NCBI RefSeq assembly: GCF_902506455.1
Contig: NZ_LR733844.1
Location: forward strand, 2,427,866-2,491,865
Reading direction: 5' to 3'
DNA length: 64,000 nt
DNA from: Sphingomonas sp. 8AM
GTDB lineage: Bacteria; Pseudomonadota; Alphaproteobacteria; Sphingomonadales; Sphingomonadaceae
In this document: positions 6,453 through 55,807 of the stretch, in pieces
How the letters are laid out: each line of letters begins with the position of its first letter
Position numbering within the stretch: position 1 is the stretch's first letter
The notes under the pieces: model-generated
Told to the model about the DNA's origin: nothing
The model's database searches: none
What the model saw: only the letters and a program-made list of their open reading frames with translations
Position numbers and translations under genes: made by a program

Positions 6453-6460
6453 GTTCTCTC

Positions 6461-6538
6461 CGTCATTGCGAGCGTAGCGAAGCAATCCAGGCCCGGATCA
6501 GGACGCCCTGGATTGTCGCGCTTCGCTCGCACTGACGG
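6461..6538. repeat. Intergenic palindromic repeat, family C copy 2
   Basis: Inverted repeat opening CGTCATTGCGAGCGTAGCGA and closing CGCTTCGCTCGCACTGACGG, with the inner pair CAATCCAGG and CCTGGATTG. It fills the space between the convergent xerC and dedA genes and may serve as a terminator for both. Confidence 0.85.
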
Positions 6539-32659: not shown

Positions 32660-32766
32660 CGTCATCCCGGACCCGTCGGCAAGCTCAGGAGAGCCTTGAT
32701 CCGGGATCCCGCTTCTTACGTCGGTCGCCAAGAAGAAGCGGGGCCCCGGATCAAGTCCGGGGCGAC
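32660..32766. repeat. Intergenic palindromic repeat, family B, with inserted spacer
   Basis: Left arm CGTCATCCCGGACCCGTCGG, then TTGATCCGGGATCCCGCTTC, and right arm GGATCAAGTCCGGGGCGACG. Compared with 34643-34726 it carries extra bases between CCCGGA and TTGATCC. It lies between the convergent Gfo/Idh/MocA and hemW genes. Confidence 0.8.
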
Positions 32767-32786
32767 GGAGGGTAGGGTGTCGATCC

Positions 32787-34642: not shown

Positions 34643-34726
34643 CGTCATCCCGGACTTGATCCGGGATCCCGCTTCCCACCGCGATCGCGAAGAAGAAGCG
34701 GGGCCCCGGATCAAGTCCGGGGCGAC
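34643..34726. repeat. Intergenic palindromic repeat, family B, best copy
   Basis: The clearest family B unit: CGTCATCCCGGACTTGATCC on the left and GGATCAAGTCCGGGGCGAC on the right, with an inner GGGATCCCGCTTC / GAAGCGGGGCCCC pair. It separates the convergent CAP-domain gene and rdgB. Confidence 0.9.
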
Positions 34727-34735
34727 GACGCCGCC

Positions 34736-36664: not shown

Positions 36665-36695
36665 CCGGGATGACGGACGGTTTGCCCCGAACCCG

Positions 36696-36826
36696 GTCGC
36701 CCCTGCGCAGGCAGGGGCCCATGGCTGTGTCGTATCGTAAAAAGTTCGACACATAGGCGACGTGACCTGTGTCAGGCCGCCGATCCCGACGACACAGCCA
36801 TAGGCCCCTGCCTGCGCAGGGGCGAC
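36696..36826. repeat. MITE-like palindromic element, family D copy 1
   Basis: A 131-bp unit with inverted ends of about 37 bp: GTCGCCCCTGCGCAGGCAGG on the left and CCTGCCTGCGCAGGGGCGAC on the right, extending inward to GGCTGTGTCG / CGACACAGCC. The interior is non-palindromic. A related unit in the opposite orientation is at 47517-47644. Confidence 0.85.
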
Positions 36827-36846
36827 GGCGTATGAGGCGTGCGCCC

Positions 36847-38928: not shown

Positions 38929-38950
38929 AGAGTCGCGCCACAAGCACTAC

Positions 38951-39046
38951 CGTCATTCCCGCGAAGGCGGGAATCCAGAACCTCTGACGTGGCGCCTCTA
39001 GCTATAGACCTTCGCGTCTGGATCCCCGCCTCCGCGGGGATGACGG
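38951..39046. repeat. Palindromic repeat, family A copy 1
   Basis: A 96-bp unit opening CGTCATTCCCGCGAAGGCGG and closing CCCGCCTCCGCGGGGATGACGG, with an inner AGAACCTC and CGTCTGGAT. Copies are at 51130-51214 and, inside a gene, at 55299-55395. It lies downstream of grpE. Confidence 0.85.
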
Positions 39047-47508: not shown

Positions 47509-47516
47509 TGCGTGCC

Positions 47517-47644
47517 GTCACCCCTGCGGAGGCAGGGGCCTATGTCTTTGTCGTGCTGCGGTACACTGACACACGGGGGTCATTCATGTGTCAGACCTAT
47601 CGCAACATTTGACAGAGATGGGCCCCTGCCTGCGCAGGGGCGAC
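47517..47644. repeat. MITE-like palindromic element, family D copy 2
   Basis: A 128-bp unit with ends GTCACCCCTGCGGAGGCAGG and CCTGCCTGCGCAGGGGCGAC. Compared with 36696-36826 it lies in the opposite orientation: both, read in the matching direction, give a similar interior with the same short peptide pattern (MC-RT/QT). It sits between regA and the glutaredoxin-MauE gene. Confidence 0.8.
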
Positions 47645-51066: not shown

Positions 51067-51376
51067 CGACGGCGGTAACGGCGGGGCGGGGGATGCGATC
51101 CCGCGTGCGTGTCGTCATCCCGCCCCCTTCGTCATTCCCGCGGCCAGAACCTCGGACGTTTCGGTCATCACGAAGACCTGCGCGTCTGGATACCCGCCTG
51201 CGCGGGAATGACGGGGTGGCCAGCAACACAACGTCACCGTCGAAGCAGGAACAAAGCGACCGCGCGGCTCTTAACGTAGGATAGCGCAGGGGGCGGCGAT
51301 TTTCGGTTCGGGGCGGCAATCCGCATTCACGACTTTTGGTAGCGAAGCGGCGTGGCTGGCCGGGCTGACCGGCTGG
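51067..51376. other. 310-bp intergenic region with family A repeat and probable missing N-terminus of CtaC
   Basis: The space between the GH13 start and the annotated CtaC start. It contains the family A palindrome (51130-51214). From 51275 the frame of CtaC is open and encodes QSAFTTFGSEAAWLAGLTGW, which resembles the conserved start of mature subunit II (QSALDPAGP...), so coding probably extends here. No ATG, GTG or TTG in that frame precedes 51377; a TAA closes it at 51272. Confidence 0.6.
51130..51214. repeat. Palindromic repeat, family A copy 2
   Basis: Opens CGTCATTCCCGCGGCCAGAA and closes CCCGCCTGCGCGGGAATGACGG, with an inner CGTCTGGAT as in the copy at 38951. It sits upstream of the caa3 oxidase operon and divergent GH13 gene. 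Confidence 0.85.
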
Positions 51377-52225
51377 ATGGTGCTGGGCGCGGTGGTCATC
51401 GCCGGGGCGCTCGGTGCGCTGATGGTCGTTGCGCAGCGCAGCCGCGAAGGCGCGATCACGCATCGGCAGGGGATGCGGCTGGTGCTGTGGGCGGGCGGCG
51501 TGGTGCCGACCGTGGTGTTGCTGACGCTGCTGATCTCCACCTTGCCCGCGATGCGTCCGATCGCCGTCAAACCCGACGACCTGCGGATCACCGTTACCGG
51601 CGAGCAATTCTGGTGGCGGGTCCGCTACCAGCCGGCGGGGCAGCCAGCGGTCGGCGATGCGAACGAGCTGCGCGTGCCGGTCGGGCGCGACGTCGAGCTG
51701 CTGCTCGAGGCAGGTGACGTGCTGCACAGCTTCTGGGTGCCGGGGCTGGCGGGCAAGCTCGACATGGTTCCGGGGCGGACGAACAGGCTGGTCGTCCATG
51801 CCACGCGCGCCGGGCGGTTTCGCGGGCAATGCGCCGAATTCTGCGGGTTGAGTCACGCGCTGATGGCGTTCGACGTGGTGGCGATGGAGCCGGCCGCGTT
51901 CGACGCCTGGCTGGCGGCGCGCCGCACGCCCGCGCCGGTCGGCGGTGACGTCGGCGGTGAGGGGGCGAGGCTGTTCGCGGCGAATGGCTGCGGTGGCTGC
52001 CACAGGGTCGCAGGCCTGTCGGATGCGACGATCGGGCCGGACCTGACGCATCTTGGGAGCCGCCCGTCGCTGGGTGCGGGAATGCAGAAGCGGACGCACG
52101 CCAATCTGGTGCGTTTCATCCGCGAGGCACCGACGGCGAAGCCCGGTGCGCGGATGCCCGCCTATCCGCAGATGACGAACGAGGATGCGGCGACGATCGC
52201 GCGCTGGCTGGAGCAATCGAAATGA
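51377..52225 (+). CDS. ctaC: Cytochrome c oxidase subunit II, caa3 type
   Basis: A 282-residue subunit with a CuA domain and a fused C-terminal cytochrome c. CuA ligands are in HSFWVPGLAGKLDM and CAEFCGLSHALM; the heme motif CGGCH is near residue 201. Two helices precede (VLGAVVIAGALGALMVV; VVPTVVLLTLLIST). Conserved sequence seems to continue upstream of this ATG to about 51302 without a standard start codon, so the true N-terminus, including a signal peptide, may be missing, frameshifted or start at an unusual codon. The stop overlaps ctaD by four bases. Confidence 0.85.
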   Translation: MVLGAVVIAGALGALMVVAQRSREGAITHRQGMRLVLWAGGVVPTVVLLTLLISTLPAMRPIAVKPDDLRITVTGEQFWWRVRYQPAGQPAVGDANELRVPVGRDVELLLEAGDVLHSFWVPGLAGKLDMVPGRTNRLVVHATRAGRFRGQCAEFCGLSHALMAFDVVAMEPAAFDAWLAARRTPAPVGGDVGGEGARLFAANGCGGCHRVAGLSDATIGPDLTHLGSRPSLGAGMQKRTHANLVRFIREAPTAKPGARMPAYPQMTNEDAATIARWLEQSK

Positions 52226-54747
52226 GCCTCCATGCGCAGGACGATCCTGCCCTTCGCGCCGCGCAGGAAGAACGGCTCCGCGCGGTGTGGAAGCCGCCGA
52301 CCGGCTGGTTCTTCCGCTGGACCGATACCAACAACAACCAGGTCGGCGTCTGGTACACGCTGACCGCGTTCGGTTTCATGCTGTTCGCGGGCGTGCTGGC
52401 GATGATCATGCGCGCGCAGCTCGCCGTCCCCGAAAACGACCTCGTCAGCCCTGCGACCTTCAACCAGCTGTTCACGCTGCACGGGTCGATGATGATGTTC
52501 CTGTTCGCGGTGCCGATGTTCGAGGCGGTCTCGATCATCCTGCTGCCGCAATTGCTGGGCGCGCGCGACCTGCCGTTTCCGCGGCTGTCGGCGTTCGGAT
52601 ACTGGAGCTTCCTGATCGGCGGCGTGTTCGTCTCCGGATCGATCTTCTTCAACGTCGCGCCCGATGGCGGCTGGTTCATGTATCCGCCGTTCACGACCCG
52701 CACCGATCTGTCGGGGCTGGGCGCGGACATCTGGATGCTGGGGCTCAGCTTCATCGAGGTGTCGTCGGTGGCCGCCGCCGTCGAGCTGATCGTCGGCGTG
52801 CTGAAGTGCCGCCCGCCCGGCATGCGGCTGAACCTGATGCCGCTCTACGCCTGGTACATCCTGGTCGTGGCGGTGATGATCCTCTTCGCCTTCCCGCCGC
52901 TGATCGCGGGCGACGTGCTGTTCGAGATGGAGCGGCTGCTCGGCTGGCCGTTCTTCGATCAGGCCAAGGGTGGCGATCCGATCCTGTGGCAGCACCTGTT
53001 CTGGATCTTCGGCCACCCCGAGGTCTATATCGTCTTCCTGCCGTCGATCGCGCTGTTCGCGATGATCGTGCCGACCTTCGCGCGGCGGCATCTGCTCGGC
53101 TATCCGTGGATCGTGCTCGCGGCGGTCGGGACGGCGTTCCTGTCGTTCGGGCTGTGGGTCCACCATATGTTCACGACCGGGCTGCCCAAGATCAGCCTCG
53201 CGTTCTTCTCGGCGGCGTCCGAGGCGGTGGCGATCCCGACCGGTATCCAGATCTTCGCGTTCATCGCCACGCTTTGGGCGGGGCGCGTCGTGTGGTCGAC
53301 GCCGTTGTTGTACGTCACGGGCTCGCTCGCGATCTTTGTGATCGGCGGGCTGACCGGCGTGATGGTGGCGATCGCGCCGTTCGACTGGCAGGCGCACGAC
53401 ACCTATTTCATCGTCGCGCATCTGCACTACGTGTTGATCGGCGGGACGCTGATCCCGTTGTTCGGCGGGCTTTACTATTACTGGCCGCTGATCACCGGCA
53501 AGAAGCTGTCCGACCGGATGGGGCGCACCGCCTTCTGGTTCCTGTTCGCGGGCGCGAACCTCACCTTCTTCCCGATGCATTTCTCCGGCTTGCTCGGGAT
53601 GCCGCGGCGCGTGTTCACCTATCCCGCCGAACTGGGGATCGGCGGGCTGAACCTCGCATCGACGATCGGGTCGTGGGTGTTCGCGGCGGGCGTGGCGATC
53701 GTGTGCGTCGATCTGGCGCTGAGCCCGCGGCGGAGCAAGAGCCGGCGCAATCCGTGGGACGCCGGGACGCTCGAATGGCTCGCGCATCCCGATGACGAGG
53801 ATTGGGGCATCCGCTCTGTGCCGCTGATCGAGAGCCGCTATCCGATCTGGGACCAGCCGGACTTCGTGAAGAAGGTCGACGAGGGTCGCTTCTTCCTGCC
53901 CGATGCCGAGGAGGGCCGCCGCGAGACGATCATCACCAGCGTGCTCGACGCGCGGCCGGTGCAGGTGGTGCGGCTGGGCGGGCCGAGCATCAAGCCGATG
54001 CTGACCGCGATCGCGCTGGGCAGCGTGTTCATCCTGACCACCTATCACCTCTATTGGGCAGCGCTGGTCGGCGCGGTGGCGACGTTGTGGATGGTGCTGT
54101 GGTGGCTGTGGACCGGCACCGCGGAGATCCCGGAGAAGGACTGCAAGCCGATCGGGCATGGCATCGAGCTGCCGCTCTACATCTCGGGCGCATCGGCGAG
54201 CGGGTGGTGGGCGATGTTCATCACGATGATGGCGGATGCGACCGCGTTCTCGGGGCTGGTGTTCGGTTACTTCTTCTTCTGGACGCGGCATGAGGATTTT
54301 CCACCGGGCGGCGCGGGGCTCGACGGACCGGGGGCGTTCTGGCCGATGGTCGCGCTGGCGGTGTCGCTGGCGGGCTGGCTGATGACGATCGCGGCGCGCG
54401 AGACGAACCGTCGCGGGCTGGTCGGGGCGGCGCGGGCGTTGCTGGCGCTGGGGGCGGTCGCGTCGCTGGCGGCGATCGGCGCGGGGCTGGCGGGGCCGTG
54501 GCTGTCGGGGCTGGCACCGAAGCTGCACGTCTATCCCGCGATCGTCTGGACATTGGTGATCTGGACCACCGCGCACGCCGGCGTGGGGGCGATCATGCAG
54601 CTCTATACGCTGGCGCGCAGTTGCGCGGGGAAGATGACGCCGAAATACGATGCCGACGTCCGTAACATCACCGTCTACCAGCATTTCATGGCGCTGACCG
54701 CGGTGGTGACCTACGCCACGATCGGCCTGTTCCCGGGGGCGGCATGA
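52222..54747 (+). CDS. ctaD: Cytochrome c oxidase subunit I fused to subunit III
   Basis: An 841-residue fusion. Residues up to about 530 are a subunit I core with FTLHGSMMMFLFAVPMFE, WIFGHPEVYIVFLPSIALFA, VHHMFTTG and FIVAHLHYVLIGG supplying heme and CuB ligands. From about 560 a subunit III domain with several helices follows (for example ISGASASGWWAMFITMMADA). Such fusions are typical of caa3-type oxidases. It overlaps both neighbours by four bases. Confidence 0.95.
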   Translation: MSLHAQDDPALRAAQEERLRAVWKPPTGWFFRWTDTNNNQVGVWYTLTAFGFMLFAGVLAMIMRAQLAVPENDLVSPATFNQLFTLHGSMMMFLFAVPMFEAVSIILLPQLLGARDLPFPRLSAFGYWSFLIGGVFVSGSIFFNVAPDGGWFMYPPFTTRTDLSGLGADIWMLGLSFIEVSSVAAAVELIVGVLKCRPPGMRLNLMPLYAWYILVVAVMILFAFPPLIAGDVLFEMERLLGWPFFDQAKGGDPILWQHLFWIFGHPEVYIVFLPSIALFAMIVPTFARRHLLGYPWIVLAAVGTAFLSFGLWVHHMFTTGLPKISLAFFSAASEAVAIPTGIQIFAFIATLWAGRVVWSTPLLYVTGSLAIFVIGGLTGVMVAIAPFDWQAHDTYFIVAHLHYVLIGGTLIPLFGGLYYYWPLITGKKLSDRMGRTAFWFLFAGANLTFFPMHFSGLLGMPRRVFTYPAELGIGGLNLASTIGSWVFAAGVAIVCVDLALSPRRSKSRRNPWDAGTLEWLAHPDDEDWGIRSVPLIESRYPIWDQPDFVKKVDEGRFFLPDAEEGRRETIITSVLDARPVQVVRLGGPSIKPMLTAIALGSVFILTTYHLYWAALVGAVATLWMVLWWLWTGTAEIPEKDCKPIGHGIELPLYISGASASGWWAMFITMMADATAFSGLVFGYFFFWTRHEDFPPGGAGLDGPGAFWPMVALAVSLAGWLMTIAARETNRRGLVGAARALLALGAVASLAAIGAGLAGPWLSGLAPKLHVYPAIVWTLVIWTTAHAGVGAIMQLYTLARSCAGKMTPKYDADVRNITVYQHFMALTAVVTYATIGLFPGAA

Positions 54748-55151
54748 AGAACGAGGCGCCGCATGGCCCCGAGCGGCGCGGGCTGCGGCACCGGCTGCGC
54801 GAGGTGCGCGTCACCTTGTGGACGCTGATCGTCCCGCCGAGCGTGTGGGCGGTGCATTTCCTGTTCTGCTATCTATGGGCGGCGGTGAGTTGCGCCAGGC
54901 TGGGCGAGCTGCCGCGCTTCACGGTGGCGTTCGTGATCGGGACGGTGGTGGCGGAGGCGATCATCCTGGCCTCGGGCTGGATCGCCTGGGTGCAGACGCA
55001 CACGCCCGGCGACCCCGCACCGCACGATCAGGGGACCGACATCGACCGGTTGCGCTTCCTGGCGGTGTCGACGTTGTTGCTGGCGGGGCTCAGCTTCGTG
55101 GCGGTGATCTTCACCGCGGTGCCGGCGCTGATGCTGACGGATTGCCGATGA
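54744..55151 (+). CDS. Small membrane protein of the caa3 operon
   Basis: A 135-residue protein with three hydrophobic helices (VTLWTLIVPPSVWAVHFLF; FTVAFVIGTVVAEAIILAS; FLAVSTLLLAGLSFVAVIF). No recognised domain, but its position between subunit I-III and CtaG with four-base overlaps on both sides suggests a role in oxidase assembly or stability. Confidence 0.7.
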   Translation: MKNEAPHGPERRGLRHRLREVRVTLWTLIVPPSVWAVHFLFCYLWAAVSCARLGELPRFTVAFVIGTVVAEAIILASGWIAWVQTHTPGDPAPHDQGTDIDRLRFLAVSTLLLAGLSFVAVIFTAVPALMLTDCR

Positions 55152-55807
55152 TGCTGGCGGGGGTCTTGCTGGCGCTGGCGGCGACGGTGCTGGGGTTCGC
55201 CGGGCTCGGGATGACCGGGCATATGGCCGCGCATATGGTGGCGGTGGCGGTGGCCGCGCCGGTGCTGGCGTGGGGCATGACCAATCGTCAGCCACATCCG
55301 TCATTCCCGCGTAGCCGGGAAACCAGACGCGCAGGTTTTTCGATCGAGCCGCGGAGGTCCGGGGTTCTGGATTCCCGCCTGCGCGGGAATGACGGTGGGG
55401 CGGGTGGGCCGCTGGCGTGGGCGACGGTGGAGTTCGTCGTCGTCTGGGCATGGCATGCACCGGGGCTGCGCGGGCTGGCAGACATGCATCCGGCAGTCGC
55501 GCTCATCGAGCAGGCGATGTTCCTCGGTGTCGGCATCGGATTGTGGCGCGCGGCGGTCGCGCATCCGGCGGGCGGGGTCGCGGCGCTGTTGCTGACGTCA
55601 ATGCACATGACGTTGCTCGGCGCGCTGATCGGGCTCGCGCCACGGCCGCTCTACGCGATGATGGCGATGCATCCTGCGCCGGGGCTGGACGCCCTCGCCG
55701 ACCAGCAACTGGGCGGAGTGGTGATGCTGGTGGTCGGCGGGGTGGCTTATTGTCTGGGCGGGCTGGCGCTGCTCGGCCCGATGTTGAGGGAGCGCGCGGC
55801 GGCATGA
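55148..55807 (+). CDS. ctaG: CtaG-type cytochrome oxidase assembly protein with in-frame repeat insert
   Basis: A 219-residue membrane protein resembling the caa3_CtaG family involved in copper delivery to the oxidase: VEFVVVWAWHAPGLRGLAD, FLGVGIGLWRAAV and LLLTSMHMTLLGALIGLAPR. Residues of about 51-83 (starting SFPRSRE and ending LDSRLRGNDGG) come from a family A palindromic repeat that has inserted in frame between the second helix and the WATVEF segment. The remainder appears intact. Overlaps neighbours by four bases on each side. Confidence 0.83.
   Translation: MMLAGVLLALAATVLGFAGLGMTGHMAAHMVAVAVAAPVLAWGMTNRQPHPSFPRSRETRRAGFSIEPRRSGVLDSRLRGNDGGAGGPLAWATVEFVVVWAWHAPGLRGLADMHPAVALIEQAMFLGVGIGLWRAAVAHPAGGVAALLLTSMHMTLLGALIGLAPRPLYAMMAMHPAPGLDALADQQLGGVVMLVVGGVAYCLGGLALLGPMLRERAAA
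55299..55395. repeat. Palindromic repeat, family A copy 3, inside ctaG
   Basis: A 97-bp unit opening CGTCATTCCCGCGTAGCCGG and closing CCCGCCTGCGCGGGAATGACGG. It matches the intergenic copies at 38951-39046 and 51130-51214 but lies within coding sequence and keeps the ctaG frame open. Confidence 0.85.

Follow-up and report, generated by a model that had tools for sequence, protein, structure and literature searches.

An in-frame palindromic REP dimer in ctaG is shared by one Sphingomonas clade and differs in orientation between species

We examined a 64,000-nucleotide stretch of the Sphingomonas sp. 8AM genome (the window) in which ctaG, a gene for a Caa3_CtaG oxidase assembly factor, contains a 97-bp palindromic element that is an insertion relative to the ctaG genes of relatives. 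The genomes that carry the element form one clade, the reading frame runs open through it and the body of the gene is under purifying selection; among the carriers the element differs in orientation and in one it has been trimmed in frame. Several lines of evidence suggest that this is a single, inherited REP dimer insertion into a tolerant loop of CtaG, an account that we consider highly probable. An ancestor of the S. phyllosphaerae/S. endophytica group would have received a head-to-head CGTC-1 REP dimer in the loop that follows the second predicted helix, at roughly the stage when the CGTC REP family multiplied in that group, and the dimer would have been passed on as an essentially neutral loop extension, with a change of orientation and, in some species, in-frame trimming coming later.

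The gene lies in a row with a COX1-containing oxidase gene and overlaps by four bases both the preceding ORF (54744–55151) and the next gene, for a cytochrome c, whose ATG is at 55804 (Table 1). Its product matches the Pfam family Caa3_CtaG (PF09678) with 66.1 bits against a cut-off of 27.7 over residues 3–214, which places it in that family. An earlier, sequence-only reading of this DNA had proposed that the repeat is read through in frame, that related palindromes lie near 38951 and 51130 and that the overlaps with both neighbours are retained, and in each respect we find the same: the element would be read in frame as SFPRSRE...LDSRLRGND within 219 codons free of stops, two further copies lie in the window, and both overlaps can be read from the sequence. 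The insert peptide is probably translated along with the rest of the protein. The palindrome folds strongly, as a single long hairpin, with a fold z score of -6.4 for positions 55280–55410 as DNA and with -69.9 kcal/mol (z -6.1) for positions 55290–55405 as RNA; none of 200 shuffles was as stable in either case.

Table 1 Features of the window that bear on the ctaG insertion.
Feature	Position	Strand	Remarks
Palindromic element, head-to-head CGTC-1 REP pair, 97 bp	55299..55395	+	ctaG codons 51-83
Left REP unit	55299..55325	+	CGTC tag, 8-bp stem with two mismatches, 4-base loop, CCA tail
Asymmetric centre of element	55326..55367	+	Marks orientation; from comparison with sister-species copies
Right REP unit	55368..55394	-	CGTC tag, stem ATTCCCGC/GCGGGAAT, loop GCAG, tail CCA; exact
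Further copy	38950..39046 (G000:C2:2466815-2466911; L013)	-	82% identical to ctaG copy; not coding both sides
Further copy, one half degenerate	51130..51214	.	Outside the site census
ctaG (Caa3_CtaG oxidase assembly factor)	55148..55807	+	219 aa, open across repeat
COX1-containing oxidase gene, same row as ctaG	52222..54747	+	PF00115

Di Nocera 2013 (PMC3733652) describes CGTC-1 REPs as having a CGTC tag, an 8-bp stem, a 4-base loop and a CCA tail, and CGTC REPs as mostly alphaproteobacterial, arranged in head-to-head dimers and without an associated transposase gene. Judged by its sequence, the ctaG element is a head-to-head CGTC-1 REP dimer under this definition, having the tag, an 8-bp stem that begins with AT, the 4-base loop and the tail. 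An Rfam search returned a weak match to MIR8622 (26.8 bits, far under the gathering score of 197), which we rejected as chance.

We searched 295 genomes of the genus for CtaG, and 24 of them match at E 1e-50 or better; the loop was readable in 114 of the 116 CtaG loci (L121 and L126 were dropped), which represent 86 distinct sequences. Between the chosen anchors the loop is 44–52 residues long in 78 of the 86. It has 54 residues in one sequence, from the metagenome-assembled genome G020, 68 in one from S. jinjuensis (G016) and 73–82 in six, which are the five full carriers and Leaf412 (G164). The full 97-bp element is present in ctaG of strain 8AM (G000), S. phyllosphaerae FA2 (G144), S. endophytica DSM 101535 (G213), G060 and G282, and the loop of G020 holds an in-frame copy trimmed to 53 bases. 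The insert had been proposed to be absent from related CtaG proteins, and indeed its residues are not common to the orthologues. The nearest neighbours of the carriers, G105 and G231, are without a recognisable element in the loop: 67 and 663 of 1000 shuffles, respectively, match the five elements as well as their loops do. NS334 (G059) may retain a scrap, as its loop has TCCCGCCTTCGCG exactly in common with S. phyllosphaerae (G144), and 8 of 1000 shuffles of this loop match the five elements as well as the loop itself does.

We built a tree from 2904 columns of flanking DNA of 19 of the 20 genomes, omitting G016. It unites the six carriers in one clade (100/100) with NS334 as the next branch (97/98), and on it the presence of the element needs one change. 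The upstream part by itself gives a concordant tree, with 95/97 for the carriers; the downstream part again unites the six (100/100) but places NS334 outside G105 and G231.

The orientation of the element can be told from its asymmetric centre. The centre in G000 is 62–76% identical to those of the other four full copies (G144, G213, G060 and G282) as the reverse complement and 38–51% forward, whereas those four are 71–88% identical to each other forward; the trimmed copy of G020 has the G000 orientation (score 67.9 vs 33.0). The partner of G000 on the tree is G144 (85/97) rather than G020, and topology tests gave a p-AU of 0.04 for G000 and G020 as one clade and of 0.03 for the other four carriers as one clade. 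The orientation has therefore changed at least once, perhaps twice. As to how the element moved and turned, the change may have come about by inversion in place, by conversion by another copy or by a second insertion; because G000 and G213 have in common both GGCATGAC upstream of the element and the right junction TGGGGCGGGTGGGCCG, inversion in place or conversion is favoured.

Turning is also compatible with the reading frame. In all five full ctaG elements (5/5) the frame that the gene uses is free of stops whichever way the element lies, and the peptide begins with SFP and finishes in ...GND; one of the other frames always has a stop at its end. Turning the element would thus keep the frame and nearly the same peptide ends. 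That the frame is open both ways offers a simple explanation, open to test, of why the insert can be tolerated. The REP family is not generally built for coding, since among 70 oriented copies elsewhere in the 8AM genome the frame used in ctaG is open in only 30, and the other frames in 37 and 35.

Instead of one inherited insertion, several independent REP insertions could have struck the CtaG loop in different species. This would explain the opposite orientations of G000 and G020 and of their four relatives directly, and it draws on the left junctions, which differ between carriers, and on Leaf412 and S. jinjuensis, whose CtaG loop other repeats have entered. The element sequences are likewise without a sign of common descent. 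Element identity failed as proof of inheritance: the G000 ctaG copy is as close to copies outside ctaG (best 86.6%, within its own genome) as to the ctaG copies of relatives (80.6–83.7%), and the relatives' other copies match the G213 ctaG copy as well as or better than their ctaG copies do. Independent insertions nevertheless sit poorly with the single clade formed by all carriers and with the upstream sequence and right junction common to G000 and G213, and fewer insertions have to be assumed if a single one was later inverted or converted. We regard them as unlikely.

The other repeats in the loop are of a different kind. Within their own genomes, the ctaG loop DNA of Leaf412 has 17 matches and that of S. 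jinjuensis 51, each count including the loop itself. Their likeness to the REP element is at chance level (199 and 300 of 500 shuffles as good, respectively), and between the two there is a weak similarity, equalled by 24 of 500 shuffles; we therefore dropped the idea of two separate families, and one broad family of Leaf412 and S. jinjuensis repeats is possible. At least two kinds of repeat have entered the CtaG loop, in three lineages and in frame each time. Such repeated entry fits tolerance of the loop, and there may also be a preference for it as a target. A wider reading, which we put at somewhat less than an even chance, is that the loop is a recurrent landing site that at least two, perhaps three, unlike families of palindromic repeats entered independently in Sphingomonas and always in frame, and in which the REP can turn in place with frame and peptide ends unchanged. 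If so, palindromic repeats would be a source of new protein loops that is safe for the reading frame and can be inverted.

Over the 170 codons outside the loop, dN/dS is 0.08–0.24 in the 15 pairs among the six carriers, indicating that purifying selection acts on the remainder of ctaG, in keeping with the earlier suggestion that the gene is functional. His, Met and Trp residues that are invariant or almost so in the alignment are retained. In an AlphaFold2 prediction made from an alignment of 36 sequences (mean pLDDT 86.5), most blocks outside the insert exceed 90 and the insert falls in blocks of pLDDT 52–71 between helices 21–45 and 88–101. The insert should thus add a floppy, low-confidence loop between confident helices. 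Given the order of the helices, this loop should lie on the membrane face opposite the conserved His residues, because H25, H29 and H103, conserved in the same alignment, are at or near the far ends of these two helices. With an open frame, a loop predicted to lie opposite the conserved His residues and a protein under selection, the element is most likely a tolerated, near-neutral insertion and would have been inherited as such.

Alternatively the insert might have a function, its Arg-rich loop or strong mRNA hairpin tuning CtaG itself or expression across the gene row; it has been kept in frame in six species and its RNA fold is strong. Among the four same-orientation copies, however, pN/pS of the insert is 0.23–0.87 (six pairs, with few changes), looser than the gene body, the element has been trimmed in G020, and the nearest neighbours do without a recognisable copy, so that a function seems improbable. 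That ctaG is instead a decaying pseudogene, open by chance, might be thought from the size of the insert in a conserved gene and from a second Caa3_CtaG frame in the genome, but the low dN/dS, the retained His, Met and Trp residues, the intact gene overlaps and a TAG near the end of that second frame make this very improbable indeed. The second frame (L187 812–1831; G000:C2:1270311-1271330) scores 139.6 bits and its in-frame TAG stands just ahead of the end of the family profile; redundancy of ctaG is uncertain for this reason.

CGTC REPs are numerous in the 8AM genome: allowing up to 3 mismatches, the REP unit has 115 half-sites, whereas the pattern in reversed letter order has 0. A search with the whole element scored 40 of 86 candidates and gave at least 80 matches, counting both strands. 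From 100 of the 115 half-sites, as listed, and the 40 scored candidates we drew an incomplete census of 62 sites, of which 46 are dimers longer than 70 bp and 16 are single units as listed; the genome thus has the many copies, mostly head-to-head dimers, that are a trait of CGTC-1 REPs. Coding was judged from the codon usage of the 150 bases on each side of a repeat. In control runs, with each of 33 genes withheld from training in turn, 600 of 660 positions within these genes scored as coding on both sides; of 1000 positions drawn at random from the window, 558 did. Among the 62 sites both sides code in one frame at one, the ctaG copy, one side codes at 14 and neither at 47. This count of the repeat within coding sequence had been suggested by the sequence-only reading. 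In S. phyllosphaerae (G144) both sides code in one frame at none of 41 other listed copies, a list that does not hold the ctaG copy and from which 2878071-2878166 was dropped. The family is therefore mostly outside genes, another CGTC-1 trait, and is kept out of them at the sites seen, with ctaG as the exception.

We looked for a second intragenic case among ten other long frames over or beside repeats of the 8AM genome and rejected it: Pfam matches occur in one of them only (L010; NMO and FMN_dh), and these lie in residues beyond the repeat. A repeat in an 894-aa open frame of G144 was likewise rejected as intragenic, not scoring as coding.

The abundance of the family follows the tree. With the G213 element as query in ten genomes, both strands counted and up to 40 candidates scored in each (so that rich genomes are undercounted), there were at least 83 matches each in G144, G213 and G060, at least 86 in G282, at least 67 in NS334 and at least 25 in G020, which is 79% complete, compared with 3 in G105, 2 in G231, 2 in Leaf412 and 0 in G005. 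The family is abundant in the carriers and NS334, while the neighbours G105 and G231 have almost none of it. Because carriers and NS334 are rich and the others poor, multiplication of the REP and its insertion into ctaG would fall in about the same part of the tree. A transposase search limited to the Y1 (REP-type) family, PF01797, found none in G000 or in eight relatives (G144, G213, G060, G282, G059, G020, G105 and G231); the same search matched in 5 of 14 control genomes.

E. litoralis and S. alaskensis are sphingomonads. Both are among several species for which Di Nocera 2013 (PMC3733652) reports intragenic REPs; the same source has some units wholly within ORFs, dimers or grouped units encoding 20–30 residues, and different REPs at approximately the same recB site in two Xanthomonas species, and among CGTC REPs it includes the Rickettsia elements RPE-4 and RPE-6. 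The in-gene repeat is for these reasons of a known kind: tag, stem, loop, tail, dimeric arrangement and location in an ORF all resemble the CGTC-1 intragenic REPs, and what sets the present case apart is the turned and trimmed forms that sister species have at a single site. The main text of that paper names neither ctaG nor cytochrome, and a supplementary entry is possible. We found no prior report of a palindromic repeat in Sphingomonas ctaG in the open-licence literature. More generally, REPs are said to overlap coding regions seldom (RepRanger 2025, PMC12306157). The ctaG case is a well-documented new example of an intragenic REP.

The likeness to Rickettsia palindromic elements, drawn by the earlier reading, proves close. 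RPE-4, RPE-6 and RPE-1 are also palindromic and lie in frame within genes, and kinship of the first two with the ctaG element would follow from the classification of Di Nocera 2013 (PMC3733652). Genes with RPEs stay functional, an RPE-bearing guanylate kinase of Rickettsia being translated and active (Delihas 2007, PMC2229807), whereas for ctaG the signs are an open frame and purifying selection, known here from sequence. The RPEs, moreover, belong to another genus and hit many genes, in contrast to one of 62 examined sites here. REPINs with RAYT transposases are similar in that two inverted REPs fold together into a long hairpin, but they have a GTAG tag; with a CGTC tag and no PF01797 match in nine genomes the ctaG element does not belong among them.

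Beyond the sequence-only reading, the insert is common to a clade, its orientation differs by species and other repeats occupy the same loop. Specialists may wish to follow the succession of states of this site, the difference in orientation and the use of the loop by further repeats; empty, filled, reversed and trimmed forms of a single site offer a stepwise view of the taming of a repeat in a conserved membrane protein.

Other repeats were seen near ctaG and in the window. S. jinjuensis has two more copies of its repeat at and up to about 140 bases before the ctaG start (L047/L074; G016:C4:253982-254119), where the frame reads SPSPSGGGLGW. Another palindromic repeat family of 73 bp occurs in the window at 32695–32767 and 34655–34727 (92% identical), with a related half at 1567–1601, and a further inverted-repeat family with arms of 41–59 bases at 36684–36838 and 47514–47644. 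Finally, a 32-base repeat is present at 1497–1528 and 6460–6491, about 4.9 kb apart, in opposite orientation and 94% complementary.
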